A DNA stretch of 64,000 nucleotides, from contig OY997590.1 of NCBI GenBank assembly GCA_963921825.1, positions 43,603,039 to 43,667,038 of the forward strand, written 5' to 3'. Below are positions 19,379 to 47,925 of the stretch, in pieces. How positions within the stretch are numbered: the stretch's first letter is position 1; each line of letters opens with the position of its first letter. The DNA is from Erodium maritimum. Lineage: Eukaryota > Streptophyta > Magnoliopsida > Geraniales > Geraniaceae. Below the pieces are notes generated by a model, which was not told where the DNA came from, did no database searches, and was given only the letters and a program-made list of their open reading frames with translations. The position numbers and the translations under genes are program-made.

Positions 19379-19379
19379 C

Positions 19380-19392
19380 TGGTATCAGAGCC
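19380..19392 (+). other. Primer-binding site of element X
   Basis: TGGTATCAGAGCC begins one base after the X 5' LTR. It shows that X is an LTR retroelement rather than a DNA transposon. Confidence 0.9.
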
Positions 19393-19407
19393 AACGATTC
19401 AGCAACC

Positions 19408-20271
19408 ATGGGTATGCCAGAACTGATTTCAGAGATTGCTTTGATGGAGAGAGAGATCGAAAGGAGTGACCAAATCCAGGAGGATTTGATTACACATTTG
19501 GGAAAGAAGGAGGAAGAGCTTGGAAGAGTTTCATGGTGGCGGGAACGTTATCTGAGAGATGAGTTGAATGCCATAGTAAATCGTGTTGATGATTGGCGTT
19601 CCTATGAGTATGAAATCAGAGGAGCTCTGGAGGTCGAGAAGCAACAACAAGCACAAATGGAGGCCGAACTCAAAGCAAAGAGAGAGGCCGAACTCGAAGC
19701 AAAGAAGGAGACCAAACTCCGATCAAAAATGGAGGTGGAAATGGAAGCCAAATTGTTCGCTGAAATACAAGCAAAGGTGAAAGCCGTAGTTGAGAAGAGG
19801 AAGCTGCCACAACAAGAACTTGAGGAGTTGCTTGCAAGGGATCATGTTTTGTTGTCACTCCGAAACATGTTTGTAGTTTAACATTATAACAATGGCTATG
19901 AATGGGTTTTAGGCGAACTTATAACCTTATTCAAAGATGAAAAAATGCTCATGGAAGTGAAGCTTGGATCTGGGAGTGAGTTGGATGAAGAAGAACTGGT
20001 GTTCGAGGCAAAACCTAAAGAAATAGATAACAGCTTATTATTGTTCTCCATGGATGCTGATAATATGACTACATACTACAAGGTTGAGGTAATGTTAACT
20101 CAATTTAAGTTATGCCCTTCTAAGCTAGTTAATCAAATTAATTGTCTGAGTGGATGGCCGACTGACATTGGGGTTTCTTTGAGTCCTTATGGATTGTTTT
20201 GGTATGGGCATATGGTAAATCAATTTGTGCAACCTAGGTTTGTGCCAAGCTCGTATCTGGATGGGTCTTAA
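19408..20271 (+). pseudogene. Gag-like coiled-coil frame of element X
   Basis: Starts at ATG 19408, 16 bases after the primer site, in a good context (CAACCATGG). The first 157 codons are charged and heptad-like, with 24-bp repeats (units like EAELKAKR) at about 19661-19756. A TAA at 19879 interrupts the frame, which continues in phase to another TAA at 20269. I recognise no family in either half. Position suggests the gag function of X, but no zinc knuckle is seen. The frame continues in phase into the E1 fragment. Confidence 0.6.
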
Positions 20272-20348
20272 AATATTGGTGCTGAGATTGTCAAGAATCA
20301 TGCTCTTGTTAGTGTTAAGTCAGGAATAGTCTACTATAAAAAAAATGC
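20272..20348 (+). pseudogene. Captured ubiquitin-activating enzyme (E1) fragment, part 1a
   Basis: NIGAEIVKNHALVSVKS corresponds to the E1 region with consensus GLGAEIAKN near the start of the N-terminal adenylation half. It is in the same frame as the upstream gag-like region. The fragment is cut by solo LTR B (TSD AATGC/AATGT) and resumes at 24599. No intron is visible, which suggests capture from a spliced RNA. Confidence 0.75.
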
Positions 20349-20906
20349 TGTAAGAACCTCCCCAGGTCGATCCTGGTCGAACCGGCGGATTCTGACGAAA
20401 GTTGACTTTTTGCCAGAAAAGTCAACCGATGACTCCAGGAGTCATTCGGGACATTTCTGGGACCCAAAATCTTAGCCGTCATTACAGTTAGCTTAGTTGG
20501 GTCGTTTCCTTTCAAACAGCTGTAATCGTGGGAAAAGTCAACCCGGGGTCATTTTCGGTCAAACGCGGTCCAATTAGAAACTAAACCTAATTAATTAATT
20601 GAGCTGGAATTATTTGAGCTAGGAGTGGTCCCCACATGGACATGTGTCCATGTTAGCTTGGAAGGGAAGAAATGGGTGCAAATGGACCATTTTACCCTTA
20701 ATGGTTGAACTTGAGAAGAGAAAGGGCAAAGGGGTATTTTGAGCATCATTTTCTCTAGGTTTAAGACACCAATTTAGACCAATTTCAGCCCATTTCTCAC
20801 TAGTGGCCGAAATTTTCAAGGGAGGAGAGAGAGAGAAGCTCCCATGGAAGCTTGAGGAAGAAGCAAGGAAAAGGAAGGGACTTTTTACTCTTTTCTACCC
20901 CAAAAC

Positions 20907-22594
20907 TGTTGGGTCTCGAGGTAGGGTTGGAAATGAACCAACTCGCAGCGGAAAATCAATGAAAACCAAGAGACGATTAAAACCATGAAACAACTAACAA
21001 AGAATGGATTCACAAGAGAAAAATTCAGCACTAGTTCTTACCAAAACAAGAACACCGGGTAACGAATGATTGGCTTGAGTCTCCAAGACGCCTACGTATC
21101 CACATGGGAATCAAAGCCACGTAGTTCTTCTCTTTGAGGACTCAAGAACACAAAAATGGAGGTGGAAACTAGCCAAACCCGAAATGGCCATGGAAGAAAG
21201 AGAGAAAATGTGTTTCCTATTCTTGTCTTGTGTTTGTTATGTTGAAAAAAGATGACTTGAACATAACAAAACCCATACTTGTCCAACTAAAGGCATGGGA
21301 CAAGTATGGTGTCAAGTAAGGTGTAAATAGGACAAAGTATGGCAAGACAAGATTGGGTTAGGTGGTGAATCACCAACACCTTAATCCTTGTCTTGCTTAC
21401 TTCGTACTAATTAATCAAGACTTGATTAATTAGTTCCATGGGCCTTGGTTGCATGGGCCTTTCATGGGCCTCTTGGAACATGGCCCGTGGCCATTTCTAA
21501 CGAGGTCCCGTGATTCGCTCATCGCCTCCAAGCCTTCCATACCGGAAATGTCCAACATTATCCGACGCGATCAATCCCAAGACTCCAAGCCTTGTCTCGA
21601 TCCGTAAAGTCCTATTCACGTACGGGCACATGACCCAAAACCCAGTTTTGGTCATATCCCGAGACAACTCCCTTTTGGCCATTCTCCATAAATGTGTCAA
21701 TGAGTTTCATCCTCCGGTGTGACCCTTAGGTTTATGCATGTCAATAGATCAACGTAAAATCCCATTTTACTTGATCCTATTTAAGTGGCAACTAACGAGA
21801 CTTTAGTATTGCCTGACACTACATAACGAATCGACCCTGTCGATTCTAACCTTTCCGTCGTCCCTGTCATTATCCTTTTATCGCCGATATCCTGATTGAG
21901 ATAAGGCATAGAGCCGTCATCCTTATTATTCTCAATCACCGTTCCTTGATATGTGAGATGACTGAAGATATGATACCCAGTATCATGTGCATGGCCATGC
22001 TATTCTTCCAGTCACTCTCGATCAAGTGGCCGAGAACCGATATCTTTCCCATACCTTAGTATGAGGGATAAATCCCTTAGCCGTCTTTCGTGTCACTCAT
22101 GTAGCCCGTCCCCAAGCCAATCCTGGCCGTTATGGAAGCCCTGTTACGGACAACGTTAGGCTCAGGTCAAACTCAGTTGTTGACTACATAGCGATCACAA
22201 AGACTCCTTGGTCTAAGGATACATGACAAGCTACAACACTGAATATGTTCATGACTTAATCTATGGCACATATTCAGGGCGGGTCGTCCAATATCATGTC
22301 CCACATGATATCTATGATCAGACTCCGGAATCCCATTCCAATGACTAACAGAACGTAAGCCATAAAGAGCCATCTTTCATACTAGTCGCTTCTAGTGGAG
22401 CTTTGTTGACTAGGGACCCATCGAGTGTGATCTATCTCGATCTATGGTTCTATTCGCATGGTGGGCATAGATCAGAGCACACATCGATATATTACTCCAA
22501 CACATAAGTAATATAAAGCCGCTTTAATTTTATTGCTAACGATGATATATACATTTGGACATTTAGGATTGAACTACGGGCACTAAGACTAACA
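20907..22594 (-). mobile_element. Copia solo LTR nested in solo LTR B
   Basis: A 1688-bp LTR of the same family as 10534-12221, reversed, flanked by AAAAC at 20902-20906 and 22595-22599. No internal DNA remains. It differs from the full element at several sites. Confidence 0.95.
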
Positions 22595-22905
22595 AAAACA
22601 TCTCAAAAACCCTATTTTCTTCATCTACTCTTCACTACCAAGGTAATCATCCAAACCATGAGAAATGCTAGAAATGGTTGAGTTCAAGGTTTGTTGGTGT
22701 TAGATGATGTTTTTTTGTGGATGGAAGTGAAGTTGGATGATGGAAATCTCTTGATTTGAGTAGTTTTGATAAAACCCATTGAGGGTGTTGAAGTATTGGA
22801 GGTTATTGGGTCTGTTTTGGAGGTTTAGGAGTTCATCAATGGAGGTTTGAGGTAGAAATTCGTGGAAAACGAAGTGGAAGAAGGAGGAAGAAGGGTCTGT
22901 CCAGA

Positions 22906-23105
22906 CCAGCACGGAACGCCACACGGACCGGGCCAGGTTCCGGCACGGAACGCCGCATAGACCGTTCCAGGGTCCGGCACGGAGTGCCGCACGCACCGTG
23001 CCTGGTCCCGGGCGGCGTGCCGCATGGACTGTGCCTTGTTCTGGGTCAGTGTGCTGCACGGGCCGGGTCGGGTACTGGGCCGGTGTGTTGCACGGGCCGA
23101 ATCTG
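22906..23105 (+). repeat. 34-bp tandem repeat in LTR B
   Basis: Six diverged units of 33-34 bp built on CCGGCACGGAACGCC-like sequence. Some units form stems such as GGCAC/GTGCC. The period equals that of the array in the Gypsy A leader (3676-3990), though sequence similarity is weak. Confidence 0.75.
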
Positions 23106-23485
23106 TTTACGGGCATGTGCTCCACCCGGATTGGGCCTCATTCCGGCCCATTTCCCGTTTTAGCCCATGTTTGACTTTCGGGCTTAATTTAGTTGTTTCT
23201 CGTTTAAAACGCAACTTAATTGGTATTGATTCGAGTATTTGTTTGTGATCCAAGACTTTGGACCCGAGCTCGACGGAGGAGGAGACCCTTGGACATCGTG
23301 AAGTGACGAGGAGGAAGCTAGTCAGGTCGTCCGCAGGTAGGATTGGATTGCTTTTGAGGTAGGGAAAGTAGCAAATACAGGTTTAATTGCGGAAAGTTAC
23401 GAGTATGCATATAGGTTGTAATTATTTGATTTAATTATTAGAATTTCATGATTAGGATGTGAGAAACGAGTGAAATGAGGGATAG

Positions 23486-23557
23486 CTTACGAGCCATGTC
23501 GAGCCGTAAGTTTGAGATTGTCGTGGTGTAGAAATGCATGCGGGCCATGTCGAGCCC
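23486..23557 (+). other. Hairpin pair with loop CATGTCGA in LTR B
   Basis: 23486-23510 pairs CTTACG with CGTAAG and, inside a one-base bulge, GC with GC around CATGTCGA. 23542-23557 pairs GGGC with GCCC around the same loop. The same loop carries different complementary stems. Confidence 0.65.
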
Positions 23558-24264
23558 TTAGGTTGCGTGTTGATTGAAATTCCATGATCTTTGATTGAGA
23601 TTCATGATGTGTGACTTAACCGTTGTTTGATTGAGAATCATTTTATGATATGCTCGGTGTAATGTGTTGATATTCTTTGGGCATGTGTGCCATGTTTGTT
23701 GTGAAGTGAACCATTGGTTGTGATATGATCGGGTGAGTGATAGACCGATGTGATGTGTTCGGTAAGTTGTGTGGTTGGTATACCGTGGTTGAACTATGAC
23801 ATTGTGATGCGTGAGACCTTCTTGATGCACGTTCCAAGATGAGGTAATCCGGTATGATACCTACACCGAGGGAGTATGCCGATGTAGGGTATCTAGACCG
23901 AGGATGGTGTGATCATTACCCTGATGTTGTGTGGTCGGGAAGACGTACGACCGAGGTATGTGCCGGTCCGGTATGTGTTGTGAGTGAGGCTCCGAGGTTG
24001 TGTGCCGGGAAGATGTCGGTACCGATGTTGTGTGGTCCGGTACGATATAATTAGAACGGGTTGTAATAGTCGGTGATGTTGGGGACTACTATACGGGACA
24101 TGTGTTTGTTCTGATGTGTGTTGTATGTTTGATGATTGGTTGTGTGCGATGACTAAGTGTGGTTATGGTCTTGTGAGAGTGATTAGTGTTGGGTAAATTT
24201 CCGTGGACGTTGTTAGTTGTTATGCCTTGCTAGTATGCCCTAATTGGATGGTTTCTCGTGGTGG

Positions 24265-24338
24265 TGAACAAATGTTCATAACCTTAACTACTTTTCCTAC
24301 TGAGCGAAAGCTCACCCCTTTACATTGTTTTTTTACAG
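24265..24338 (+). other. Two palindromes and a TACAG acceptor-like site in LTR B
   Basis: TGAACA/TGTTCA around AA (24265-24278) aligns in position with the A-family palindrome but with A-T pairs replacing G-C pairs. A second stem, TGAGC/GCTCA around GAAA (24301-24314), is followed by a T-rich run and TTTTACAG ending at 24338. A candidate donor GTAATC lies at 22643. Confidence 0.6.
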
Positions 24339-24598
24339 GTCTTGAGTTGGATCTGTGCTAGCGGGGTTCTCGGCGCTTGGCAGCTAGCGAGGGTCTTGTC
24401 TAGTTGTCTAGAGACGTACTGTTTATTTGCCGTTAAACTTATTTATTTTGTGGATTTTACTGAGCTGTTGACTCATTAGGTTACTTGGAGCTTTTAATCT
24501 GTCATTTGAGACCCCTTTTTGATGTTAAAATTGTTCTATTATTTATTAATTTAAGTTCATGTCTCGAGTTCGGTCAAAACCGGATTTGGGGCGTGACA

Positions 24599-24745
24599 AA
24601 TGTGGAGTTGCTGAAATTGTCTAGCCATCTTATTTTCTCGAAGAGTGATGTGGGTAAGAACAGGGTACTTGTTTTTGTTCAGAAGTTGCGAGAGCTTAAT
24701 AACACAGTCAACATTTATATCTTAACCACAACTATGACAACTCTT
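24599..24745 (+). pseudogene. Captured E1 fragment, part 1b
   Basis: [20 protein letters not shown] and [11 protein letters not shown] match the E1 block that follows part 1a (consensus VEL.DLSS.F.....DVGKNRA...QKL.ELN). Excising solo LTR B makes 1a and 1b contiguous and in frame. The homology stops near 24740, where EPSP synthase-like sequence begins. Confidence 0.82.
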
Positions 24746-24749
24746 TTGG

Positions 24750-25075
24750 GTGAGGAAATTGAGATTATTGGTAAGTCAATCTCAATTCCTTACGTTGAGA
24801 TTATTTTGAAGTTGATGGAACAATTTGGAGTCACCTTGGAGCATCGTGATTCCCTAGACAGGTTCTTGATCCAAAGAGGAAAAAATATATAACTCCTAGA
24901 AATTTTTATGTGAAAGTTGATTCTTCAAGTGCTAGTTATTTCCATAGGGGGCAGCAGTTATTGGTGAAATTGTCATTCTGAATATAAGCAACTCAGAGGA
25001 TGATGTTAAATTTGCTAAGGTTCTCAAAGAAATGGGTTGCCAAGTTACTTGGACAGAGAATAGCGTGGAACTTGT
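24750..25075 (+). pseudogene. Captured EPSP synthase fragment
   Basis: EPSP synthase makes 5-enolpyruvylshikimate-3-phosphate in the plastid shikimate pathway. The fragment reads [34 protein letters not shown], then (after a frame break in the A run near 24883) PRNFYV..SSSASYF, and (after another break near 24943) DVKFAKVLKEMGCQVTWTEN. These follow the order of the plant enzyme over roughly 110 residues. No introns are seen, so a spliced mRNA source is likely. It sits between two E1 fragments. It is too short and broken to be an enzyme. Confidence 0.88.
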
Positions 25076-25154
25076 TGATTATGGGAGAAGTGTTTCTACT
25101 ATGCTTAAGATACTGACTGAGCTCCTTGAAAAAGAGCCTACGCCTAATTATTAT

Positions 25155-25410
25155 TGTTACAATCATAAGCCATCAAATGTCCTCATCAAGGTTGAAATTA
25201 AAGGTCTTTAAGGCTATGTGTTTTTTGACTTTGGAGCCAAGTTCATTGTTCTTGAAGTTGAGGAGGAGGAATCTCACACAGGTATAATTGCTTCAATTAA
25301 TAATGACAATCCATTACCAATTTCATGTGTTGATGATAAAAGACTAGAGTTCCAGGATGGGGATGTGGGTGTATTCTCCAAAATTAATGGGAAGCTTAGA
25401 AAGGTTAAGT
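25155..25410 (+). pseudogene. Captured E1 fragment, part 2
   Basis: The segment reads HKPSNVLIKVEIKGL, then after a TAA at 25209 [32 protein letters not shown] and [15 protein letters not shown]. This is the E1 block that lies about 20-30 residues beyond part 1b in the normal enzyme. It shows that the EPSP synthase piece separates two parts of one E1 fragment. The frame continues downstream into unidentified sequence. Confidence 0.88.
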
Positions 25411-26231
25411 TATTCCCTTTTCCACACCTAGCAAGAAGAAAGGTAGATTCATAGATGGGTGGCTCAAGAGTTTCATTGAAAGTGGAAGACTATCAGAAGC
25501 TTCCAAAGGATAAGTTCATCACCATGATCACTCTTGAAGGTTGTCGGGGTGAGATCAAACCCGATCAGTACAATAATAACTTGTGGGAGATCATTCTATT
25601 GAGGGCTTATGGAAAGATCATTGGTGGCTATGTATTACAAGGAACAGTCTATGTTGACATCTTTAACCGGCTTGATGTGCTAAATATTTTTATGCATGGA
25701 GGAACCAACCTTGGTTGTCCTAAAATCTCAGATACACTTATTTTGGAGTTCCCATATCAGCCCCTTATTCCAAATGATTATGCTTGTAATTTTGCAAAGG
25801 CATTTGTTCCATCATTATGAACTTGTGTTCTGATGCAATGGCAAATAAGTAGTACGGATGCTGAGGAAGGCACGATTGTTAGCATTATTGGTGTTTGTGT
25901 CCATTTGGGTGCATTAGAAACATGCAAAGGTTTCTTGGTGGATGGCTTTATAGTCTTCAGTGGCTCATTCAATATAATTGCGGAGTCAAGAGCATGTTTC
26001 GCGACAAAGGAAGCACTGGGTGGCAAGGGTATTGATATGATGAACAAAGGTGATGGTGCATGAGAAAGTTCTTGTGGAAAATTGAGAATTTCTCAAAACT
26101 GAGAATCTTGTTTTGAAGAAGAAGAAAATCAACCATGGTGTTAAAGACAAGTACAGGGTGGTTGTGGTGAATCAAAAGGGCTCTGCTAAAAGTTGGTGGA
26201 AAGAGCTATCCAATTGTACCAGCTCTCACAG
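25411..26231 (+). pseudogene. Unidentified reading frame of element X
   Basis: In the same frame as E1 part 2, broken by TAG 25452 and TGA 25818, an open frame runs to 26063. Blocks such as VSLKVEDYQKLPKDKFITMI, YVDIFNRLDVLNIFMHGG and IIGVCVHLGALETCKGFLVD look like real protein, but I do not recognise them. After 26063, in another frame, FLWKIENFSKL resembles the start of a MATH domain; this is weak. Element Y interrupts at 26241. It could be further host gene pieces or a diverged element-specific protein. Confidence 0.5.
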
Positions 26232-26433
26232 TAATGCTAAGGGTAAATTGCAAATGCCTACCCCAAACTTGTAGCGTTTAACTGATACTTACCCTAAAGT
26301 TTTTTTTAACTGATACCCACTCAAATGTTTAGTTATATAACAAATAGCCCAAGCCGTCAGCTAAAATTACGAAAATACCCTCAACTACACTTCAATAATT
26401 ATTTCAAAAAAATTATTTAAAAATCACTTTTGT

Positions 26434-27160: not shown

Positions 27161-29694
27161 TGTAAAACCCCACTCTTTCATTAGGGTAATGTTCTGAGAT
27201 ATGAAAAGGTTGGGTTTGTTTTTGCAACGAGTAGTGTCGAAAAGAAAGAAGAAAAAAAAAGAGAAAGGAGGGAAATTGGGCTGGACAGGTTGACCAGGCC
27301 GGCCAGAACCTCGGCCCAGTACAAATCTGCTGCTCAGGCCCAATTCCCCAGCGTGGCCCAACCCTAGGATCAAAACCAACGCGCAGCCTCTTCAGATCCG
27401 CACTTTCTCGCACGATTCCCGAGGAGCTTCTCCCTCATCGAGCTTCCCCCTCTCTCGTTCCGCTCGGAAGCGAACCAGAGCAGCGGTGTCTCCGGCCAAC
27501 GTCACGGCTCCTCTCTCCCTTCACCTCCGTCTACTGCTACCTCACCAACGCCCTCACCTCCCTCTTCTTCTCCATCCTCGGCAGAGACACGCGAGTTCGA
27601 ACTGACGCCGGAGATCTCTCCCCTCGGTTTCGTCCTTCCCAAGCTCGAAACGAGCCCAACCTTGCCCTTTTCCGTTCTCCCAGACCTCGAATCGATCGGA
27701 TTCCTCAGTTCCGTGCTCGATTCAAGGGTTTTCAGTCAGAAGCACCGGCGGCGAACTCCGTCTCCTCCAGATCTGCACGGGAACAGATACACACAGTGTT
27801 CCAGCCAACGCCGCAGCGGTTCCGACCTCGCCAAGCCCTGACGCCGCCTCCCCACTCTTGTTTCTCCCTCCACGACCTCACCTGACGCCGTGGGCGGTGG
27901 CCGGAGCGATGCTGTCTCGCCGGAGGGCCACAACTCAGGCACGGACAGGGTTGGGCCAGAAGAGACCTGGGCTGAAAAGGCGTTGGGCCTGGGGGAAAGA
28001 TCGGGCCGGACAGAACAGAAGACGGGCCTTGGCCCATTGTGGACTCGGGCCTTGGGCCAAGTTGGACTTCAGGACCGGGTCTGGACCGGGTTCGGGTTCG
28101 GATCCAGGTCAACCCGACTGTAAAAGAAACCGTTTTAAAATCAGATTTAATTAACTGGTTTAACTGATTCAAGGTGAGAATCTAAAAGATAATTTTGGTT
28201 AAATCGGTGGACCTTTGGACATCTATTGGTTTTGACTGGATATTTTATGTGTCGAACTTAGGCGGGACTTCGCCCGAGAACAAGGGCTTGGAACCAAGCT
28301 AGATGAGCAAAATCACGCCGGAACCCGTGTGAAGAACGGAGTTTTATCTACCAAGCGCGACAACAGAGTGTTAGAGGAAGACCGCGAGGTAGGGAAAGTC
28401 TTAACTTCTCGTTTAAATGCTTAGTATGCATGTTAGGCTAATAAAAGCGGAAAGGTCCTAGAAATGCCTATAGAATGCGAATAACTAGAATAATTGTCTT
28501 TCATTTACTAATAACCGGACGTGTCTAGTAATGCTTGCGTAGGATGCTAATCACTAGTGTAACTCGCTTTCAATACTTGGGAATTGATTTACTGGTAGAG
28601 CGGCCTTGGCAAAGCCCTCGGATTAGTTGTGTGTTAGGATCACATGCTTGGTTGTTTGGTTGCTTAGTGGATAGGCTAAAGAGTCTAATGGAACTAGTTG
28701 AATTGCATGCTTGAATGCTCGATGGAAGGTTTACATGACTGGTTGATTGAACTCGTACTTGCTTGTTGAATGTATTTAAGTGATTGCTTTATTTCCTTAA
28801 ATGGTTGATTGGAGAATCGAGTATGACTGGTTGTACCAAGCGGTGCAATCAGGTGATCGATGGACCGATGGGTCATGACGGGTAAGTAAACGGTAAGTTG
28901 TGGTTATGTGATTCGTGTGCTGTGGTTATGAGATTCGTGTGCTGTGTGTTGTGGTGAAACGGTGATTCGTGAGTTATGTGTGATAGTGGAATGGTGTTCA
29001 TTGGGAATGGATTGCTTCGTGTTTCGTTTGAGTGTGTTACTCAATTATATCTGTTTATTATTGAATTGCCCAAGTGTATGCTTCCTATGGAAGTAATACC
29101 TTGGTTCCCGAGGACATATAGCCCTTTGGAGACGTTTCTGAGAATCCCGATGATAAGCGCCCTCAGGGGGTTGTTTCCGGTAGCCTCAATGATATGCGTC
29201 GCCTCTGGACTTGAGGGAAAATCCGAGAGGACACATCATAGGTGGATCGGAGGGTGGTGACTTCATGTGACACGACATTGTTTGGATTACCTATTGCCCG
29301 TAATTGTTAAGAGTTACCTTGTTGACTTGTTGATGAAATTATTGAGTTTAAAGTCCACCTTGTTATGTATTTTCCCTACTGAGCGCGAGCTCACCCCTTT
29401 GAGTTTATTGTTGTGATTACAGGCTTGATTAAGGAGTAGAGGCTCGGGAGCTTCTTGGTGTGGGTGTCTTATTAGAGACTTCGTTTAGGTTTTTATTTCA
29501 GTTTTTGAACAAACCATGTTGGAGGATTATTATTACACCCCTGGAGGGTTTTATTCATGTTTTGAACCGAGTTATTCTGATTTGAGACTTAATTGGAGGA
29601 TTTATGAAATTGTTGTTGGATGAATAGCGTTGAAAACCGTTTTTACTCAAGTCACGTCTCGAGTCCGGGTAAGAACCGGATTTGGGGCGTGACA
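27161..29694 (+). repeat. LTR 1 of Gypsy C
   Basis: TGTAAAACCCCACTC to GGGGCGTGACA, 2534 bp. It differs from LTR 2 at many positions in its first 1.84 kb but shows none that I can find in the last 690 bp. It contains a GC-rich segment (27290-28130), a candidate donor at 28174, the TGAGC/GCTCA hairpin at 29380-29393 and TTACAG at 29422. Confidence 0.93.
29380..29422 (+). other. GCGA-loop hairpin and acceptor-like site in LTR C
   Basis: TGAGC and GCTCA enclose GCGA, a GNRA-type tetraloop if transcribed. ACCCC and a T-rich run lead to TTACAG at 29422. Copies lie near 37982 and 46576. Confidence 0.65.
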
Positions 29695-29696
29695 AT

Positions 29697-29710
29697 TTGT
29701 TATCAGAGCC
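29697..29710 (+). other. Primer-binding site of Gypsy C, first unit
   Basis: TTGTTATCAGAGCC two bases after the LTR, a variant of the initiator-Met site (usual TGGTATCAGAGC). The second copy is at 38299-38312. Confidence 0.8.
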
Positions 29711-31041: not shown

Positions 31042-31042
<1 letters not shown>

Positions 31043-31078: not shown

Positions 31079-31079
<1 letters not shown>

Positions 31080-35764: not shown

Positions 35765-38296
35765 TGTAAAACCCCACTTTTTCATTAGGGTAATGTTCTG
35801 AGATATGAAAAGGTTGGGTTTGTTTTTGCAACGAGTAGTGTCGAAAAGAAAGAAAAAAAAGAGAAAGGAGGGAAATTGGGCTGGACAGGTTGACCAGGCC
35901 GGCCAGAACCTCGGCCCAGTACCAATCTGCTGCCCAGGCCCAATTCCCCAGCGTGGCCCAACCCTAGGATCAAAACCAACGTGCAGCCTCTTCAGATCCG
36001 CACTTTCTCGCACGATCCCCGAGGAGCTTCTCCCTCATCGAGCTCCCCCCCCCCTCTCGTTCCGCTCGGACGCGAACCAGAGCAGCGGTGTCTCCGGCCA
36101 GCGTCACGGCTCCTCTCTCCCTTCACCTCCGTCTACTGCTACCTCACCAACGCCCTCACCTCCCTCTTCTTCTCCATCCTCGGCAGAGACACGCGAGTTC
36201 GAACCGACGCCGGAGATCTCTCCCCTCGGTTTCGTCCTCCCCAAGCCTGAAACGAGCCCAACATTGCCCTTTTCCGTTCTCCCAGACCTCGAATCGATCG
36301 GATTCCTCAGTTCCGTGCTCGATTCAAGGGTTTTCAGTCAGAAGCACCGGCGGTGAACTCCGTCTCCTCCAGATCTGCACGAGAACGGATACACATAGTG
36401 TTCCAGCCAACGCCGCAGCGGTTCTGACCTCGCCAAGCCCTGACGCCGCCTCCCCACTCTCGTTTCTCCCTCCACGACCTCACCTGACACCGTGGGCGGT
36501 GGTCGGAGCGATGCTGTCTCGCCGGAGGGCCACAGCTCAGGCACGGACAGGGTTGGGCCAGAAGAGACCTGGGCTGAAAAGGCGTTGGGCCTGGGGGAAA
36601 GATCGGGCCGGACAGAACAGAAGACGGGCCTTGGCCCATTATGGACTCGGGCCTTGGGCCCAGTTGGACTTCAGGACCGGGTCTGGACCGGGTTCGGGTT
36701 CGGATCCGGGTCAACCCGAATGTAAAAGAAACCGTTTTAAAATCAGATTTAATTAACTGGTTTAACTGATTCAAGGTGAGAATCTAAAAGATAATTTTGG
36801 TTAAACCGGTGGACCTTTGGACATCTATTGGTTTTGACTGGATATTTTATGTGTCGAACTTAGGCGGGACTTCGCCCGAGAACAAGGGCTTGGAACCAAG
36901 CTAGATGAGCAAAATCACGCCGGAACCCGTGTGAAGAACGGAGTTTTATCTACCAAGCGCGACAGCAGAGTGTTAGAGGAAGACCGCGAGGTAGGGAAAG
37001 TCTTAACTTCTCGTTTAAATGCTTAGTATGCATGTTAGGCTAATAAAAGCGGAAAGGTCCTAGAAATGCCTATAGGATGCGAATAACTAGAATAATTGTC
37101 TTTCATTTACTAATAACCGGACGTGTCTAGTAATGCTTGCGTAGGGTGCTAATCACTAGTATAACTCGCTTTCAATACTTGGGAATTGATTTACTGGTAG
37201 AGCGGCCTTGGCAAAGCTCTCGGATTAGTTGTGTGTTAGGATCACATGCTTGGTTGTTTGGTTGCTTAGTGGATAGGCTAAAGAGTCTAATGGAACTAGT
37301 TGAATTGCATGCTTGAATGCTCGATGGAAGGTTTACATGACTGGTTGATTGAACTCGTACTTTCTTGTTGAATGTATTTGAGTGATTGCTTTATTTCCTT
37401 AAATGGTTGATTGGAGAATCGAGTATGACTGGTTGTACCAAGCGGTGCAATCAGGTGATCGATGGACCGATGGGTCATGACGGGTAAGTAAACGGTAAGT
37501 TGTGGTTATGTGATTCGTGTGTTGTGGTTATGAGATTCGTGTGCTGTGTGTTGTGATGAAACGGTGATTCGTGAGTTATGTGTGATCGTGGAATGGTGTT
37601 CGTTGGGAATGGATTGCTTCGTGTTTCGTTTGAGTGTGTTACTCAATTATATCTGTTTATTATTGAATTGCCCAAGTGTATGCTTCCTATGGAAGTAATA
37701 CCTTGGTTCCCGAGGACATATAGCCCTTTGGAGACGTTTCTGAGAATCCCGATGATAAGCGCCCTCAGGGGGTTGTTTCCGGTAGCCTCAATGATATGCG
37801 TCGCCTCTGGACTTGAGGGAAAATCCGAGAGGACACATCATAGGTGGATCGGAGGGTGGTGACTTCATGTGACACGACATTGTTTGGATTACCTATTGCC
37901 CGTAATTGTTAAGAGTTACCTTGTTGACTTGTTGATGAAATTATTGAGTTTAAAGTCCACCTTGTTATGTATTTTCCCTACTGAGCGCGAGCTCACCCCT
38001 TTGAGTTTATTGTTGTGATTACAGGCTTGATTAAGGAGTAGAGGCTCGGGAGCTTCTTGGTGTGGGTGTCTTATTAGAGACTTCGTTTAGGTTTTTATTT
38101 CAGTTTTTGAACAAACCATGTTGGAGGATTATTATTACACCCCTGGAGGGTTTTATTCATGTTTTGAACCGAGTTATTCTGATTTGAGACTTAATTGGAG
38201 GATTTATGAAATTGTTGTTGGATGAATAGCGTTGAAAACCGTTTTTACTCAAGTCACGTCTCGAGTCCGGGTAAGAACCGGATTTGGGGCGTGACA
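35765..38296 (+). repeat. LTR 2 (middle) of Gypsy C
   Basis: Nearly identical to LTR 3, differing by one base in a C run. It is preceded by the purine tract TAAGGGGGGTAGAC and followed directly by a second primer site. It serves as 3' LTR of the first unit and 5' LTR of the second. Long frames in its GC-rich part (about 36000-36750) lack family similarity. Confidence 0.93.
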
Positions 38297-38727
38297 ATTT
38301 GTTATCAGAGCCTGGTTTCATTTGAAACAGGTGTCTTTGCGAACTTGTTTTCAAACCTCGGACCGAAGTCAATTAGGTGGGTAGGGTTAGGGAGTCTGAG
38401 TCGTGATACTCAGTGACGCGATTTGGAAACATTGACGCGGAGAGTTCGAACGACATGAGTCGTGAGTCGCTTTAATGTTTTTCTTAAATGGAATCTTTTA
38501 CACTACAATGATTGCGTTACTTGATTGGTATCCTCTCCCTAGTGATCGGTGAAGCCGAATGGTTGAGATCGGAATTGAATTAACGGGCGGTGATCGACCC
38601 GCTATGCATTCGTTGTAGAGTGAGCCAATTGTTGGTGGTGTTGCCATTGTGGTGGATCATTTCTAAAATCTTCAAGTTGAAGTATGGTCTTATTCAATTG
38701 TTGACTTGTTTAATTGACCGCTGTTCT

Positions 38728-39172
38728 GGAGCATGAGAACTCCATGTATGCTTGTATTGAGTGTTTTGGGTGGGGCACGAGAACCCCGTATCCCGTTGTG
38801 TGAGAACTTTGGGTGGGGCACGAGAATCCCTTATACTGTTGTGTGAGCATGTTGGTGGGGCACGAGGACCCCGTATGTCGTTTGTGTTGAGTATGTTGGT
38901 GGGGCACGAGAACCCCGTGTGCCCAGTGTGTGGCGAATTTGGGACACGAGCACCCCGTGGTATTTGGGAGCACGAGCACTCCGCATACCGAGGATAGTGA
39001 GTTTGTGGGGAGCACGAGGACTCCGTTTATTGATTGTGTTGTGTACTTTGGGGAGCACGAGAACTCCGTTTATTGACTTTGTTGTGTAACTTGAAGAGCA
39101 TGACCACTCTATGTTTTGACTGTGTGGTGTATTTGGCCGAGCATGAGAACTCTGCGTACTTCTTGTCTTGTG
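38728..39172 (+). repeat. Hairpin array with CACGAGAA loops, second copy
   Basis: Duplicate of 30126-30570 from tandem duplication of the internal region; no difference seen. Confidence 0.8.
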
Positions 39173-40228
39173 ATTTTTGTTTGTAAATGTCCCGCTTAAG
39201 CGGAGGGTTAAGGGAAAATACGAATAGATCATGCCGAAATTTTGGTAGAACTAAAGTTGTCGCACTATCACGGGCTGACTCAGGGGCACCACTGTAGTCG
39301 AGTGTGATGGTTTGATGTCAAGTTGTTACAATGAGGTTCGGGGATGCCTGAATCGGGTTGTAACGACATGAGATCGACATGAAAAGGTTTGGGTAAAAGT
39401 TAATAAATGGGAATCTTTGGAAGGGAAGGAAGGGCTAAGGGTGATTATTGAATTGAATTGTGTTAAGTGATAAACCCCTCTTTGTGAAAGGATACCCGAG
39501 CAAGGGGTATGCCTGTTGACTTGTGCTCTGTGTGGTGTGCTTGAGTTGGAACCTTCCTGTGGGAGTTGGTGGTGGATTGCTTAAATCGCTGGTTGTTGTT
39601 GTGAGACGCATAGAGATGCGAAATTGTGTGCTATTATATATGAGTATATATATATATATATATATATATATCTACTAAGCTTAAGAGCTGTAAACTTGGG
39701 TGACTTGTGAGACGCGCGTGAACGTCCTTGTACTTGATCGAACCTTTGATTTATGTGTGAGACGCACGAGGTGCGGGTCTCTTGTCTACATAAGTGCTAC
39801 TTATGACTTTACGACTTGCTTTTGATCCAAGTGGGATCCGGTGAAGACGCACGAGAACGTCATGCTTGGGTGAATCGAACCGATTAGGTTAAACTGATTT
39901 ATGAACCTATAGGTTCTAAATGCAGTGAGCTTACGAGATGTCACGTGTCTACATCCTGGAGAGTACCAAGAGCCGTCCAGTGTGGGGGCAGAGCCAGACA
40001 CCAGCTGTTGTTCTGGCAGGGACAGTGAGCTCCCAGGATGCTGCTCCCACAGAGCACCAGAGTTTTGGGGATAGACCAGTAGGGTCACACCAAGAGTTTC
40101 CCCAGTCGTAGAGCCGACTCAAGCGGCCCTATTGATGAGGTGGTTCGCGCAGTGTTAGCTGCGCTCAGCATGAGACTACAGCACCGACAGAAGAGTCTGT
40201 ACCTACTGCCGACGCAACCACTACCGAG

Positions 40229-40588
40229 ATGCCAGGCCAGGTGGACGGTTACACGACCCAGGCACTCAGGAGTTTTCTTACGTTGAGTACACCAGTTTAT
40301 TCTGGGAATTTAGACCCAGAGGCAGTTGTATTATGGTTGGAGCGGATTACCCACAACCTTAATACGTTTAGAGTATTCTGGTATTCGTTGGAGAATGTGT
40401 TCCCCAACCTACCAGCTGAGGGAGAAGCTCGATACTGGAAGCAACGGGTGCAGACCAGACCTGGAAATGACTTCCAGCCGTTCAGCGGACTGTCCTTGGG
40501 ACAGTGTTTCCTTCGATCTATTCGAGATGACCGACACCAGCAGTTTTGGATCTGCAGTGGAAAAAGGGTGACCGTTTATGAGTATTAG
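40229..40588 (+). pseudogene. Gypsy C gag remnant, second copy
   Basis: Identical at protein level to 31635-31994 and broken at the same codon, which shows that the damage predates duplication. Confidence 0.7.
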
Positions 40589-43500
40589 GCGAGGTTCATG
40601 TCCATGTATCGTTTCGCACCGGGATGGTGCCGACCGAGGAGAGCGCCGCAGGCGTTTTGGAGAAGAGACTCAGTTCGTCTAGCACAATTTAAGTCATTGC
40701 AGTCAGACCCGAGGAATATTCTGTATTAGTGGAACAAACTTTAGCTTTAGGGAGACTTTTGGGGAAACCACCAAGGCGCGGAAGATCAGGCCAAGGCCGA
40801 GGGGCTTCTTGAGGCCGTCAGAGAGTCGCAATCCGAGGAGGCAGGGGACCCCAGGATTCTGTCTGTCACATAACCAGTCCCGTGAGACACGACTGGTTGG
40901 AGAAGTAGTGTCCGTTGGACCTGCCCCGGTGGCATAGTTTGCCCTCGAGCAAACAGTTGGAACGTCTAGGCCGAGAAGGCCAGTTGAGTGATGGATCTAC
41001 AAACCGTCCCACAGGTCGATCTACGAGAGTCGATAAGAGAACCTGCCGCTATAGCATCAAATTATTCCAACCCCATCGAGAGGAGGACCTCCGATGTGGC
41101 AGGGGCGAACGTACCTGATTACCGAGCCCCGAGTGAGGACTTGTTACCGATCTTGAGATCGAGTAGAGTACTGGTTACCATTTCCACGTTGGATTTCGTG
41201 TCAGCTGACACTTGAGCATTACACTGGTGTATTGGTTCGTGGTGGCATATAGATCGAGCGAGTTGAACACTGTTAAGCCCACCGGTACTTTAACCACATC
41301 GACTAGAGGTATGGTAGTACCGACTAGCATTAGTGGGAGTTGGAAAGTGGAGTAACAGACTTGGCCTTACTGAAGGTTCTTTTCATTCTCCGATTGTATG
41401 GATCGAATTTTGAGAACCGATTGTTGAAACAGCAAGCGTTCATCGAGTGACATCAGCAGGGAATGCCGAGCAGTGAAAGGCTACAGCCTTGACCAGTAAA
41501 CGGTTCGACTAGTCGCAGGAGATGACCGAGCTACGACTAGATCATAGTAGCGCAGCAGAAGCGTGGTGGGCCCATACCCACAGGAGTATATAGTTCCTTT
41601 TAACCCCGCTACAAGACTAAGGTTATTAGATTCGAACCATCGAGACGATGTTGTTCCAAATCCTTGTTAGCGAGCGAAGGGTGCACGAGTGTGTGTCGTA
41701 CGTGAGAAACTAAATCAAGGTGTGTTTCTTACGTTTTTTCCAGAAGGACTAAGCGGCTTACCGCCAATTCACACGGAACAAACGGACAACATTAAGAGTT
41801 AACCAAACGACCTTCCCAGAGGAGAAGAATACGAAGAACGCGAGCCGAGTACCAAGGCAGATCTCCATCAGCAGGAGAAGAACGAACACTAGTGTCCCGC
41901 AAGGACTAAGCATAACCATGAGGTTACGTCCTAGAAGTGAGAGCACATCTTGTTGAAATCGAGCTACAGATAGCTGAGGGTGACTACCACAAGCTTTCAG
42001 GCCAATAACAAGATGGCACCGAGCGAGTAATCGTATGGTAAGTCGGATTTTGTGCCATGCATGGGCACGGGAAAAGTTAAGAGCTAACCATTGTCGGTTT
42101 TAATTTATCAGGTAACGAATGAAGGAACCATACGGGTTTCTGAACCGTTCAATTTATCGAGATCTCAGTACGTGTTGATTACTCCTTAAAGGGCAACTTG
42201 GGTGGACTTGATTTTAAGTTGTTTTGATTGGTAACTCGTGAGCGGGTGTCAACGGTATAAGAAATACCGTCGGTTGGGATGACCTTGGGCAATCGATCTT
42301 GGATCGTTGTTCACAGTCGAGTGTAATTTCGTGCGTTCAATTTTGGTGTCTTGAAGGACGCCTACTTTCGACCAAGTGCCAGTAAGAGGTTTTATTGGTC
42401 CGTATTGTTGTACGTCGTTCGTCTGACTAGGTATCGGTAGAGTTCATGGTGGTACTGAACCATGCACCGGTTTTGAGAACCATTATCTCGTGATAGGATG
42501 ATTCAGGTAAGATGACTTGTGAGGTGGTTGGATCAGGTGTTGAGAACTGGTATCGATGTCAAGAGAAGTATCGCGAGTTGGATAACCTTCTCGTTTGATC
42601 ACAGTGAGAGGTGGATAGCTTACCGCGAGTTAAGTTTGTGGTACGTGATGTGTAACTGACCCGTACCAGGTTGAGAACCGTGTTAAGGTTTAACCGTTGT
42701 GATAGATGTGTGTGATGTTGGTTGTGTGCGAGACACGTTTGTGCTTTATCGTTTACCATGTGTGTGATGACATGTTAAGTGATGTGGTTGCAGTTGGTGT
42801 TGGTTCGTTCGATTATGTTTTGTGAGTGTGATGGGATCTTGAGTTGAGGAGTGTGGTTACGAGTTCCGTTGGAAATTAATTGTGTGATGTACCCGGATGC
42901 CAGGCTTAGTATGACGGGAGGTTGTGATTAAGTTATGTTTTGAGGCATGCCACATTTCGACTATATGCCGGTACGTTGTACCATTTACGTGATTGAGGTG
43001 CGTCTACCTTCCCTCGAGATGTGATGAAACGAGCGGTTGTCCAAACCCCGTAGTGATTATGAGAACCTTTGATTGGATGATTACATTTGTGTGTTGCTTA
43101 CTCGTCTTGTGTGTGTTAGGTCGTGACAAGACCTTTTTGGCGTTCTAGTGTGAACTTTTCGGGAGACAGTTACTAAAGAGAAATTGAGGAGTTACACCTA
43201 CGGATGGCTCCGTCCTTGTCCGATTTTCGGAGTTTTCCAGTGAGACACCCATACCGAAGAAAGATCCCGGTATGGCATGTTTGACCCGAGGCCGTTCTAT
43301 CCGGTCCGATACTGGTACCAGTGAGGATTCTGATAAGAAGTATCTACATCGAAGTTGTTGATGACGGTCCGCCGTCTACACTAAAATTGGAGTCTGTTGG
43401 AGGTTACCAAGATCGTTTCTGGCATCCCTCAGGATCTGAGGTGGGTACGATTACCCTTTTGAGTTGCGCCTAGTAGTCCACCGGAGGTGGTAAATAGGAT

Positions 43501-43973
43501 GGGCATTCCGGACCGTGCAATGATCATGAGATCCTGGGTCTCGAGGAAGTGGTTTATGTGTTACTTGATCGTGTAATCGTTTGTAGTTGGTCTTAACACG
43601 AAGAATTTCGGATTTCTGGGTAAGCTGTCCCTGTAACGGTTACTAAGAAGGAAACTGAGTGGTCATGCCTACGTGTAATTTCCTACTCCAGTTCGCCTTG
43701 CGAGGTGTTCCGGCGCGATACCTATGACCGACGAGAGATTCCGGTCTAGAGTATCTAGACCGATTTAGAGTATTTCAGTACGACGTCTATACCGAGGTGG
43801 GATTCCGGTATAGGATGTTTTATAGTGTCATCTGGTATTCCTTAACGTTTCAGTGTTCTTTGACATGTTGGGTCCAGCAGTGGTTCTTGAGTTATGGTTG
43901 CATGATGAAACTGCGAACTGTTAAGAAAGACTGTTTTTCACCGCCCAGTGTGGCTCTTGAGTAACTAGCGGGA

Positions 43974-44358
43974 TCTAGTGAAACACGAGTAAGTGAAGGT
44001 CGCGCAAATGCGGAAACGGGTGAAAGCCGAGTAGAGCCGACAGAAGAATTACACAGGCGAAAGGCGCAGGCCTATTGAGTTTCATTGCGGGATCAGATAT
44101 TCTGAGAGTGAGCCTAAGAGGGGCCTTAGCGGATCGACAGAGACGGAGGCAAGTTGGCCCCGCAGTTTATCAAACGTTTTGAGATCTTCAGGCAGGACTA
44201 GAGTCGTTGCCTAGCAGCTTCCGTGTGTTCCCAAACTACGGGAGTACAACGCGGATCCCTCGCTTGTGAGTCTTGAGCAGGACGTTCCCTGAGATAGGAT
44301 CAAGAGGAGCGCGTGCGTTTTAAATTTTGAGGACAAAATTTCTTTAAGGGGGGTAGAC
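43974..44358 (+). pseudogene. Gypsy C pol 3' end, second copy
   Basis: Duplicate of 35380-35764, ending in the same purine tract before LTR 3. Confidence 0.65.
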
Positions 44359-46891
44359 TGTAAAACCCCACTTTTTCATTAGGGTAATGTTCTGAGATAT
44401 GAAAAGGTTGGGTTTGTTTTTGCAACGAGTAGTGTCGAAAAGAAAGAAAAAAAAGAGAAAGGAGGGAAATTGGGCTGGACAGGTTGACCAGGCCGGCCAG
44501 AACCTCGGCCCAGTACCAATCTGCTGCCCAGGCCCAATTCCCCAGCGTGGCCCAACCCTAGGATCAAAACCAACGTGCAGCCTCTTCAGATCCGCACTTT
44601 CTCGCACGATCCCCGAGGAGCTTCTCCCTCATCGAGCTCCCCCCCCCCCTCTCGTTCCGCTCGGACGCGAACCAGAGCAGCGGTGTCTCCGGCCAGCGTC
44701 ACGGCTCCTCTCTCCCTTCACCTCCGTCTACTGCTACCTCACCAACGCCCTCACCTCCCTCTTCTTCTCCATCCTCGGCAGAGACACGCGAGTTCGAACC
44801 GACGCCGGAGATCTCTCCCCTCGGTTTCGTCCTCCCCAAGCCTGAAACGAGCCCAACATTGCCCTTTTCCGTTCTCCCAGACCTCGAATCGATCGGATTC
44901 CTCAGTTCCGTGCTCGATTCAAGGGTTTTCAGTCAGAAGCACCGGCGGTGAACTCCGTCTCCTCCAGATCTGCACGAGAACGGATACACATAGTGTTCCA
45001 GCCAACGCCGCAGCGGTTCTGACCTCGCCAAGCCCTGACGCCGCCTCCCCACTCTCGTTTCTCCCTCCACGACCTCACCTGACACCGTGGGCGGTGGTCG
45101 GAGCGATGCTGTCTCGCCGGAGGGCCACAGCTCAGGCACGGACAGGGTTGGGCCAGAAGAGACCTGGGCTGAAAAGGCGTTGGGCCTGGGGGAAAGATCG
45201 GGCCGGACAGAACAGAAGACGGGCCTTGGCCCATTATGGACTCGGGCCTTGGGCCCAGTTGGACTTCAGGACCGGGTCTGGACCGGGTTCGGGTTCGGAT
45301 CCGGGTCAACCCGAATGTAAAAGAAACCGTTTTAAAATCAGATTTAATTAACTGGTTTAACTGATTCAAGGTGAGAATCTAAAAGATAATTTTGGTTAAA
45401 CCGGTGGACCTTTGGACATCTATTGGTTTTGACTGGATATTTTATGTGTCGAACTTAGGCGGGACTTCGCCCGAGAACAAGGGCTTGGAACCAAGCTAGA
45501 TGAGCAAAATCACGCCGGAACCCGTGTGAAGAACGGAGTTTTATCTACCAAGCGCGACAGCAGAGTGTTAGAGGAAGACCGCGAGGTAGGGAAAGTCTTA
45601 ACTTCTCGTTTAAATGCTTAGTATGCATGTTAGGCTAATAAAAGCGGAAAGGTCCTAGAAATGCCTATAGGATGCGAATAACTAGAATAATTGTCTTTCA
45701 TTTACTAATAACCGGACGTGTCTAGTAATGCTTGCGTAGGGTGCTAATCACTAGTATAACTCGCTTTCAATACTTGGGAATTGATTTACTGGTAGAGCGG
45801 CCTTGGCAAAGCTCTCGGATTAGTTGTGTGTTAGGATCACATGCTTGGTTGTTTGGTTGCTTAGTGGATAGGCTAAAGAGTCTAATGGAACTAGTTGAAT
45901 TGCATGCTTGAATGCTCGATGGAAGGTTTACATGACTGGTTGATTGAACTCGTACTTTCTTGTTGAATGTATTTGAGTGATTGCTTTATTTCCTTAAATG
46001 GTTGATTGGAGAATCGAGTATGACTGGTTGTACCAAGCGGTGCAATCAGGTGATCGATGGACCGATGGGTCATGACGGGTAAGTAAACGGTAAGTTGTGG
46101 TTATGTGATTCGTGTGTTGTGGTTATGAGATTCGTGTGCTGTGTGTTGTGATGAAACGGTGATTCGTGAGTTATGTGTGATCGTGGAATGGTGTTCGTTG
46201 GGAATGGATTGCTTCGTGTTTCGTTTGAGTGTGTTACTCAATTATATCTGTTTATTATTGAATTGCCCAAGTGTATGCTTCCTATGGAAGTAATACCTTG
46301 GTTCCCGAGGACATATAGCCCTTTGGAGACGTTTCTGAGAATCCCGATGATAAGCGCCCTCAGGGGGTTGTTTCCGGTAGCCTCAATGATATGCGTCGCC
46401 TCTGGACTTGAGGGAAAATCCGAGAGGACACATCATAGGTGGATCGGAGGGTGGTGACTTCATGTGACACGACATTGTTTGGATTACCTATTGCCCGTAA
46501 TTGTTAAGAGTTACCTTGTTGACTTGTTGATGAAATTATTGAGTTTAAAGTCCACCTTGTTATGTATTTTCCCTACTGAGCGCGAGCTCACCCCTTTGAG
46601 TTTATTGTTGTGATTACAGGCTTGATTAAGGAGTAGAGGCTCGGGAGCTTCTTGGTGTGGGTGTCTTATTAGAGACTTCGTTTAGGTTTTTATTTCAGTT
46701 TTTGAACAAACCATGTTGGAGGATTATTATTACACCCCTGGAGGGTTTTATTCATGTTTTGAACCGAGTTATTCTGATTTGAGACTTAATTGGAGGATTT
46801 ATGAAATTGTTGTTGGATGAATAGCGTTGAAAACCGTTTTTACTCAAGTCACGTCTCGAGTCCGGGTAAGAACCGGATTTGGGGCGTGACA
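44359..46891 (+). repeat. LTR 3 of Gypsy C
   Basis: 2533 bp, ends GCGTGACA and is followed by the ATATT duplication. It carries one more C than LTR 2 near 44640. Confidence 0.93.
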
Positions 46892-47059
46892 ATATTTAAA
46901 AAATCACTATGGGCATTTTCGTCTTTTTAGCTGACGGCTTGGGCTATTTGTTATATTACTAAACATCTGAGTAGGTATCAGTTAAAAAAAACTTTAGGGT
47001 AAGTATCAGTTAAATGCTACAAGTTTGTGGTGGATATTTGTAGTTTACCCTAATGTTAA

Positions 47060-47925
47060 TGTCAAATTCATCAGATTAGCAAACACATAGGAAGTGGTGA
47101 TGGTTCTTGCTTGTGAGATCCTTGATCACTGTCAGTAGGTTGATTTTCTAATACTAGAGTTTCTTGAGCTGGGTGATGACAGACATGTTTCGTTAAAAGA
47201 CCAGATAGAACATATTAATTGCAGAGGCAATGGAGTGACAAGAAGAATTCAAGAAAAGGTTGTGCATACATCCCAAGAGCAATTCAGTAACAATATCAAG
47301 GTCAATGGGACAAGGGAAATGATGAATATTCATTTTCAGAGGATGGAGGATAGGGAACGTATAGCCACGGGAATGGGGACTCACGACATCAAGGATCCAA
47401 TCGTTAGTATTTGGGTTCAATTGAGCGAAATTGTTGCAATGTTGGAAGCCTTATTTCCAGCATATCCGACCCACCTGATGATGTTTGGATACTCACTTCG
47501 GAAGGAAAATATTTTGATGGAGATAGAGGGTCTGATGAAATGCAAGTGCCATATATCAAGAGGTCAGGGTTAGGAGATACCGTAAGGGCTTATGGTCTTG
47601 ATGGTGTTTCTAGTGAAGATAAAGAAGGCATTGGAGTATTTTCTTCCAGGAGAAATTCAGTCAAGGCAAGTTATGACCTTGCAATGGAGCACCCTGTTGT
47701 CTTTTTGGGTTGTAGGTCTGTTGAAATTATGGGAGTAGATGATGCAGACCTTATTATTTTTGTTGTTCCTAAGGATGATGCTGACTATTCTTGGTATCAG
47801 TGGACTAATGAGGAGTTGGACGGCACAAAACTCATGAACGGGTCATGGATAATGCACTTAGCTAAAGGATCCGGTCAGCAACCAAAGGAAGACTTGAGGA
47901 CAAGTCTTGCTGAAGGGGAAGGCAT
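47060..47925 (+). pseudogene. 3' part of element X interior, unidentified frames
   Basis: Two overlapping open frames cover most of it: 47235-47573 and one from 47411 that runs into the LTR. The second reads DDVWILTSEGKYFDGDRGSD, VVFLGCRSVEIMGVDDADLI and DADYSWYQWTNEELDG, which look protein-like. I do not recognise them, and they are not RT or integrase. They could be more captured host sequence. Stops near 47138 and 47152 break the 5' part. The segment ends in the purine tract AAGGGGAAGGCAT before the 3' LTR. Confidence 0.5.
47911..47925 (+). other. Polypurine tract of element X
   Basis: TGAAGGGGAAGGCAT directly precedes the 3' LTR start at 47926. Confidence 0.75.

Follow-up and report, generated by a model that had tools for sequence, protein, structure and literature searches.

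In the genome of Erodium maritimum, a stretch of 64,000 nt (GCA_963921825.1, contig OY997590.1, positions 43,603,039-43,667,038, forward strand; hereafter "the window") contains a long terminal repeat (LTR) element, X, in which a fragment of EPSP synthase (EPSPS) lies between two parts of an E1 (UBA1) fragment. How did pieces of two unrelated host genes come to be joined within such an element? We searched the whole genome (763 Mb in 40 contigs, at least nine of which exceed 60 Mb) and propose, with a probability of roughly 0.8, that X is a decayed member of a non-autonomous LTR family, which uses template switching to take up spliced host mRNAs one after another and to recombine them. Below, loci are given by L numbers and contigs by C numbers.

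X belongs to a family of LTR elements

X extends from window position 10410 to 48431 and is longer than the segment (19379-47925) delimited in the initial annotation, which was made from the sequence of the window. Its LTRs begin with TGTCAGG and end with CTGACA, and they differ at 39 of 507 aligned positions. The primer binding site and the purine tract, on which X had been called an LTR element, are both present together with this LTR pair. The primer binding site TGGTATCAGAGCC is presumably that for initiator Met tRNA. As had also been stated, X encodes no reverse transcriptase (RT) or integrase: no model for them was matched in the nine pieces of X that were scanned with Pfam. The three internal pieces left over in X total about 3.5 kb, which is inside the range of ten other copies (3.2-3.8 kb; L076 not counted).

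The initial annotation recommended a search for other copies, and this search was productive. Using X 19380-20340, the start of the coiled-coil frame, as the query, we obtained 79 first-look candidates and 40 scored matching places, X among them; the X LTR matches further places in the genome. Fourteen regions (L053-L065 and L076) were fetched, and 11 of them (all except L058, L064 and L065) were used in the cargo analysis. An LTR pair was found in all 11 (over 128 nt only in L055, and in two pieces in L061). One or two bases of the TG...CA ends are changed in some copies, and the LTR starts of L059 and L063 were read with one or two changes. Exact 5-bp target duplications flank 8 of the 11 copies (L054, L056, L057, L059, L060, L061, L063 and L076); the duplication matches at 4 of 5 bp in L062 and was not resolved in L055. 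TGGTATCAGAGCC follows the 5' LTR exactly in L054, L056, L059-L063 and L076 and with one change in L053 and L057 (L055 was not displayed). Models for RT, RNase H, integrase, protease and Gag are absent from the Pfam matches of 95 sense open reading frames (ORFs) from ten copies, and also from the frame scan of L076. Thus, the family has the paired LTRs, primer binding site, purine tract and short target duplication of an LTR retrotransposon and lacks the proteins of an autonomous one. The parts that are the family's own are the LTRs, the primer binding site, the purine tract, a conserved coiled-coil N-terminus and a short tail beside the 3' LTR.

Because X is broken by three later insertions and has no target duplication, chance neighbours in a nested-repeat region might have been taken for one element. 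We give this idea a negligible chance: uninterrupted copies on other chromosomes show the same kind of order between their LTRs.

Two further loci carry family sequences in other settings. Seven of the 40 coiled-coil-start matches lie at multiples of about 2660 bases in C6:35499912-35524355, a pattern suggestive of a tandemly repeated family copy. At C2:71926335, a 1208-codon frame contains the region that follows the coiled coil in the family.

Host gene fragments carried by the copies

Stop-to-stop frames of at least 50 codons from ten internal regions (L076 excluded) were scanned with Pfam at E values up to 0.01. In 95 sense ORFs, 22 models were matched, as against one, at chance level (E 0.0076), in 133 antisense ORFs. 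The 22 models are not all distinct genes, since three are PPR, four are translation GTPase and two are coiled-coil-like. As shown in Table 1, the combinations of fragments differ between copies. Counting X, assigned host fragments are present in 11 of 12 copies and represent 18 host families: E1, EPSPS, iPGM, NUP96, HECT, VAC14, NABP, DUF7477, invertase, RPL5, SRP54, mTERF, PPR, translation GTPase, RPN1, WNK, NDC1 and CDC48. In this count, PMD and the glycine-rich gene were left out and translation GTPases were counted once. VAC14 and iPGM were also recovered by whole-database searches.

Table 1 Cargo assigned in the analysed copies (E values of weaker matches in brackets)
Copy	Assigned fragments
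L053	PMD, E1, EPSPS, NUP96, HECT (0.035), VAC14, NABP/Pumilio, DUF7477
L054	PMD, E1, EPSPS, HECT (0.0035), PPR (0.0011)
L055	PMD, E1, EPSPS, E1_FCCH (0.026), invertase, RPL5, SRP54
L056	PMD, NUP96 (0.018), HECT (1.5e-6), VAC14, NABP, DUF7477
L059	PMD, E1, mTERF
L060	translation GTPase, PPR, RPL5
L061	PMD (0.02), WNK, NDC1, E1_SCCH
L062	PMD, PPR (0.0096), RPN1, eEF1A
L063	PPR, SRP54
L076	PMD (0.003), iPGM, CDC48

In X itself, the two-part E1 with EPSPS between its parts was supported by both kinds of search, so the concern that these similarities would fail in a profile search was not borne out. The E1 parts match the Pfam models ThiF (7e-5) and E1_FCCH (1.3e-3), both under Pfam's own cut-off, and UBA1 structures in a PDB sequence search (4e-6); the two parts of EPSPS match plant EPSPS structures at 1.3e-12 and 6e-8. 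The stretch that EPSPS replaces amounts to about 17 residues of E1 and spans a parental exon border. Two of the blocks that had been left without a name have since been assigned, one to the start of iPGM, which includes in-frame codons upstream of the ATG of its parent L007, and the other to a gene that we take to be glycine-rich-protein-like (parent L008). A PDB search with the iPGM and glycine-rich pieces of X gave no match; the iPGM identity is backed by searches in copy L076. A broken frame at 26064-26240 (+) is tentatively, from its translation only, presumed to be a MATH-domain fragment, and no search confirmed it.

The combination of E1 and EPSPS, first thought to be new, is real; it is not unique to X, because the fusion was found at six further loci, some of them partial. 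The description of one gene inside the other holds for X and is not settled beyond it: in L053 and L054, the first E1 part and EPSPS are followed by NUP96, and a second E1 part was not seen. The possibility that other copies are ordinary gag-pol elements was not borne out either. Many copies are without E1-EPSPS, those that were read carry other cargo, apart from L057, and none has gag-pol.

Two other loci touch on this cargo. L010 (C8:38343698-38344212) has the family's E1-EPSPS block in several short pieces, one of them inverted, and is a rearranged copy. L005 (C2:58845336-58848520, reverse strand) has a 335-codon frame, a longer piece of the glycine-rich gene and an end like the family tail; it is probably another family copy with its own cargo.

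The cargo is in sense orientation and, for five genes, without the parental gaps

The best-matching loci outside elements in this genome are called parents here. For five genes, the cargo of the copies runs on across gaps that separate the exon matches of these parents. The EPSPS parents have gaps of 94 nt (C1) and 541 nt (C6) between exon matches, and L054 runs through. For E1, gaps of 579 nt (C9) and 83 nt (C3) are absent from L061; for VAC14, a 2.1 kb gap in the parents on C7 and C1 is absent from L053; for iPGM, gaps of 641 and 70 nt are absent from L076. The piece of the glycine-rich gene in X is without a 513-nt stretch of its parent and another 74 nt. The Pumilio parents match in one exon and are uninformative on splicing. 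We took the gaps to be introns; splice borders were read in L004 alone. In L004, the E1 exon stops a few residues beyond the first E1 part of X and is followed by an intron of about 1 kb with GT and AG borders, and the second E1 part starts shortly after this intron. X itself is uninformative on the loss of this intron because the border falls within the stretch replaced by EPSPS.

Because the cargo is in sense only and the parental gaps are lost for five genes, we infer an origin from RNA. This agrees with the successive RNA-level capture by an LTR element that was proposed from X alone. The sense-only cargo also fits the usual orientation reported for genes transduced by retrotransposons (PMC7264820). 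L061 contains another E1 region than X, and each of these two is matched by the E1 genes on C9 and C3. Therefore, E1 mRNA gave both pieces, by one long or two separate captures.

Capture at the DNA level would give a different picture. In Pack-MULEs and Helitrons, the cargo retains introns, lies in either orientation and is bounded by terminal inverted repeats or Helitron ends. The family differs from them in each respect: there is one chance-level match among 133 antisense ORFs, the gaps of five genes are gone, and the units are bounded by LTR pairs, with exact target duplications in 8 of the 11 copies. Fragments of host genes have been reported within such DNA elements (PMC1947982), and LTRs might have enclosed these fragments later. 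We nevertheless regard this route as highly improbable.

We propose instead that the family RNA would be packaged and reverse-transcribed in trans by the proteins of another element. During minus-strand synthesis, the enzyme may switch to a co-packaged host mRNA and back, which would add a sense, intronless piece. For plant elements, reverse transcription is described as switching by accident between unrelated RNAs within a single particle (PMC13317346).

At C3:29024216, C5:67417763 and C5:5366743, open frames of 652-694 codons match a part of the L061 frame (within residues 256-416) at 58-60% identity. They may possibly be the parent of another captured piece.

Pieces have been exchanged between copies

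L053 is a mosaic. Its internal positions 125-838 are closest to X (79% at the amino acid level, as against 61% for L056 and 70% for L057 over similar stretches), positions 796-2108 are closest to L054 (84-86%) and positions 1954-3564 are closest to L056 (80-90%). Over the first 138 bases, X is no closer (78%) than L056 and others (83%). Furthermore, the synonymous divergence of the coiled coil within a pair can be several-fold that of the cargo (0.87 vs 0.22 for L054-L061). This is expected if cargo moved between lineages after their coiled coils had separated. Switching between two family RNAs may reshuffle the pieces in this way. In Arabidopsis, Onsen is reported to recombine pairwise at a high rate during retrotransposition (PMC5668417).

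Neighbouring fragments tend to share one reading frame

Neighbouring fragments share a frame in 25 of 35 pairs, whereas one third would be expected (p 5e-6). Five copies combine at least 93.6% LTR identity with two or more assigned fragments (L054, L060, L061, L063 and L076), and in these the frame is the same in 11 of 13 pairs; L055 was excluded from this subset because its LTRs could be compared over 128 nt only. When each pair of gene names is counted once, 21 of 28 are in frame in any copy and 18 of 28 in every copy. Intact-frame copies had been sought, and two were obtained. L061 has a single 883-codon frame across WNK, NDC1 and E1, and L076 has a single 1174-codon frame, extending into the 3' LTR, across iPGM and CDC48; the PMD of both is weak. 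Among 7989 candidates sharing most words that were scored, no annotated relative of the 1174-codon chimera was found: the only two matches were a protein named iPGM and a hypothetical protein with the same iPGM domains.

If capture occurred at the RNA level, the frame excess might be a mere by-product, for example of a few in-frame joins shared by ancestry and recombination. Some joins are indeed shared by descent, which brings the strict count down to 18 of 28, and L062 and L063 are wholly out of frame. However, the strict count is still above one third (p 8e-4), and distinct in-frame joins are present in L053, L060, L061 and L076. We therefore consider this by-product explanation rather unlikely.

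The coiled coil is constrained more than the cargo

In comparisons within the same pairs of copies, the coiled coil has omega values of 0.21-0.47 with third-position changes in excess in seven of eight rows; the eighth row, L054-L060, has 0.62. In a longer set, the N-terminal rows have 0.21-0.69. In contrast to the coiled coil, nine rows of cargo and PMD in the within-pair comparisons have 0.58-1.44, and their codon positions are flat or nearly so. Since decay after insertion hits both parts alike, the contrast within a pair reflects the period of retrotransposition. We read the coiled coil as constrained and the cargo as little constrained or not at all. The cargo omega of L053-L054 and L053-L056 (0.54-0.72) was dropped as evidence on selection because LTR divergence puts most of the difference after insertion; the within-pair contrast takes its place.

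These values bear on whether the chimeric protein is useful to the element or host, with cargo retained for protein function, as has been proposed for Bs1 of maize. The long open frames, the frames kept over junctions and a cargo omega below 1 in most rows are in its favour. However, the cargo is less constrained than the coiled coil of the same copies, its omega (0.54-1.44) overlaps that of the same alignments in wrong frames (0.43-1.76), and different copies have unrelated cargo. A useful chimera is thus improbable.

The nature of the coiled coil was also considered. In an AlphaFold model of L054, a helix spans residues 48-150, with pLDDT of about 90 or above over 61-140, low confidence later and pTM of 0.38. 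No homologue of the coiled-coil frame was found among 644 candidates, and no Gag homology was found by Pfam; the model has helices only. The proposal of a gag-host fusion protein is thus unproven, because no homology to Gag could be detected in the coiled-coil frame.

Within the proposed mechanism, copies with one open frame through the cargo appear to spread better, the amino acid sequence of the cargo being largely free. As an extension of this, the family might be a running protein-fusion machine, which needs an open frame of any sequence from the coiled coil to the tail, fills it from co-packaged spliced mRNAs and trades the pieces. This extension is tentative, and we rate its chance somewhat short of even. 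The selected trait would be the open frame, perhaps via translation-coupled packaging or escape from nonsense-mediated decay. Among the open-licence papers listed on nonsense-mediated decay and LTR elements, none addressed this point in its title or opening abstract lines.

Points that weigh against the capture model

Several observations weigh against capture with recombination by an LTR family, or against selection on its frame. All copies come from one genome and were picked by similarity to X. X has no 5-bp target duplication (CAACA vs CACTC), and none was seen in L053. The parents are best matches and not proven sources. No autonomous partner was identified, and one candidate on C6, with LTR matches about 10 kb apart, could not be read. 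Nothing was assigned as cargo in L057, and some assignments are weak alone (HECT in L053, 0.035; NUP96 in L056, 0.018; PPR in L062, 0.0096). Every tested neighbour pair is out of frame in L062 (3/3) and L063 (2/2). The probability that the 1174-codon frame stayed open by chance since insertion is 0.21, counting substitutions only; therefore, the condition of the frame when the copy inserted accounts for its openness no less than later selection does, and an argument from its age for selection was rejected. Finally, some N-terminal omega values are higher (L053-X, 0.52; L056-X, 0.59; L054-L060, 0.62; L053-L056, 0.69); three of these four comparisons extend well past the coiled coil.

Organization of the X locus

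The features of X and of the elements inserted into it are collected in Table 2. In the 3' internal part of X, a block at about 47357-47467 is common to the VAC14-NABP region of L053 and L056, and the tail at about 47826-47924 is common to L061 (both by tblastx).

Table 2 Features of X and its insertions (window positions)
Feature	Position	Strand	Basis or remark
5' LTR of X, part 1	10410-10533	+	TGTCAGG start; 90% to 3' LTR; 12/125 mismatched
LTR element inserted later within 5' LTR of X	10534-18991	.	1.69-kb same-orientation end repeats; GTATC on both flanks
5' LTR of X, part 2	18992-19378	+	CTGACA end; 93% to 3' LTR; 27/382 mismatched
Primer binding site of X, TGGTATCAGAGCC	19380-19392	+	sequence
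Coiled-coil frame, conserved N-terminal module of family	19408-19881	+	157 codons
N-terminal module continued, same frame past a stop	19945-20271	+	frame reading, tblastx
Later insertion (solo LTR B of the initial annotation)	20349-24598	+	own termini; flanks aatgc/aatgt; end high-copy
Solo LTR inside the 20349-24598 insertion	20907-22594		flanks aaaac/aaaac
E1 (UBA1) fragment, part 1	24599-24739	+	Pfam ThiF 7e-5; parent exon in L004
EPSP synthase fragment, internal frameshift	24760-25070	+	PDB 1.3e-12 and 6e-8 for two parts; exon matches of the C1 and C6 parents are gapped here (L054 as query)
E1 (UBA1) fragment, part 2	25128-25391	+	PDB 3.9e-6; matches L003, L004, L006
iPGM (phosphoglycerate mutase) N-terminus and in-frame 5' untranslated codons	25438-25573	+	81% nt to parent L007
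Glycine-rich-protein-like gene fragment	25641-25830	+	83-91% nt to parent L008
Inverted-repeat element	26241-47050	.	TAA on both flanks; 141-nt inverted repeat; own termini
Tandem LTR element with three LTRs, inside the inverted-repeat element	27161-46891		ATATT flanks
3' internal part of X	47051-47925	+	tblastx
Polypurine tract of X	47911-47925	+	sequence; same position in other copies displayed
3' LTR of X	47926-48431	+	TGTCAGG...CTGACA

The inverted arms of the inverted-repeat element lie at 26241-26380 and 46911-47050. It is apparently a small transposon that later received the tandem LTR element. The latter has two near-identical internal regions head to tail at a spacing of about 8.6 kb and is a product of either recombination or tandem insertion. 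At the end of the window, positions 58286-64000 consist of tandem units of about 2427 bases with the same LTR as the solo copy at 20907-22594.

Comparison with known systems

Several classes of elements have LTRs, a primer binding site and a polypurine tract without RT or integrase. In LARDs, the conserved internal region is non-coding, and in TR-GAGs, Gag is the sole coding part. The family is unlike LARDs in having frames of 883 and 1174 codons, and it probably differs from TR-GAGs, because a Gag domain was not recognized in its sequence. TRIMs share the same lack of RT and integrase (PMC4717578); however, they are small, whereas some copies of the family have a long chimeric frame, with no detectable Gag.

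In rice and sorghum, host genes lie within full-length LTR elements, as in the family (PMC3726574). These are annotated genes, whereas the cargo here consists of short fragments of many genes, often in one frame, behind a common coiled coil. Onsen resembles the family in that co-packaged RNAs recombine pairwise into mosaic copies (PMC5668417); Onsen mixes element sequences, and the family mixes host cargo modules too. In the accessible open-licence literature, we found no description of a family in which the sets of host fragments are recombined, in frame and different across many copies.

Bs1, with its three genes, often serves as the example of gene transduction by LTR elements in plants, and here one family shows many instances, in which splicing, orientation, frame and reshuffling can all be read in one genome. 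Two questions thereby become testable: how frequently host mRNAs are joined by reverse transcription in plants, and for what reason an element that is not autonomous keeps a long frame. In addition, the family provides natural fusions in which pieces of several housekeeping proteins are joined.

The closest likeness is Bs1 itself, an LTR element in which segments from several host genes gave a hybrid gene (PMC13317346). Its hallmark, a hybrid frame between LTRs that is built from spliced fragments of several host genes, is present in the family as well. Bs1 is described with three host genes, whereas the family has 18 host gene families in varied combinations with exchange of modules. The family is best read as a family-wide version of maize Bs1.

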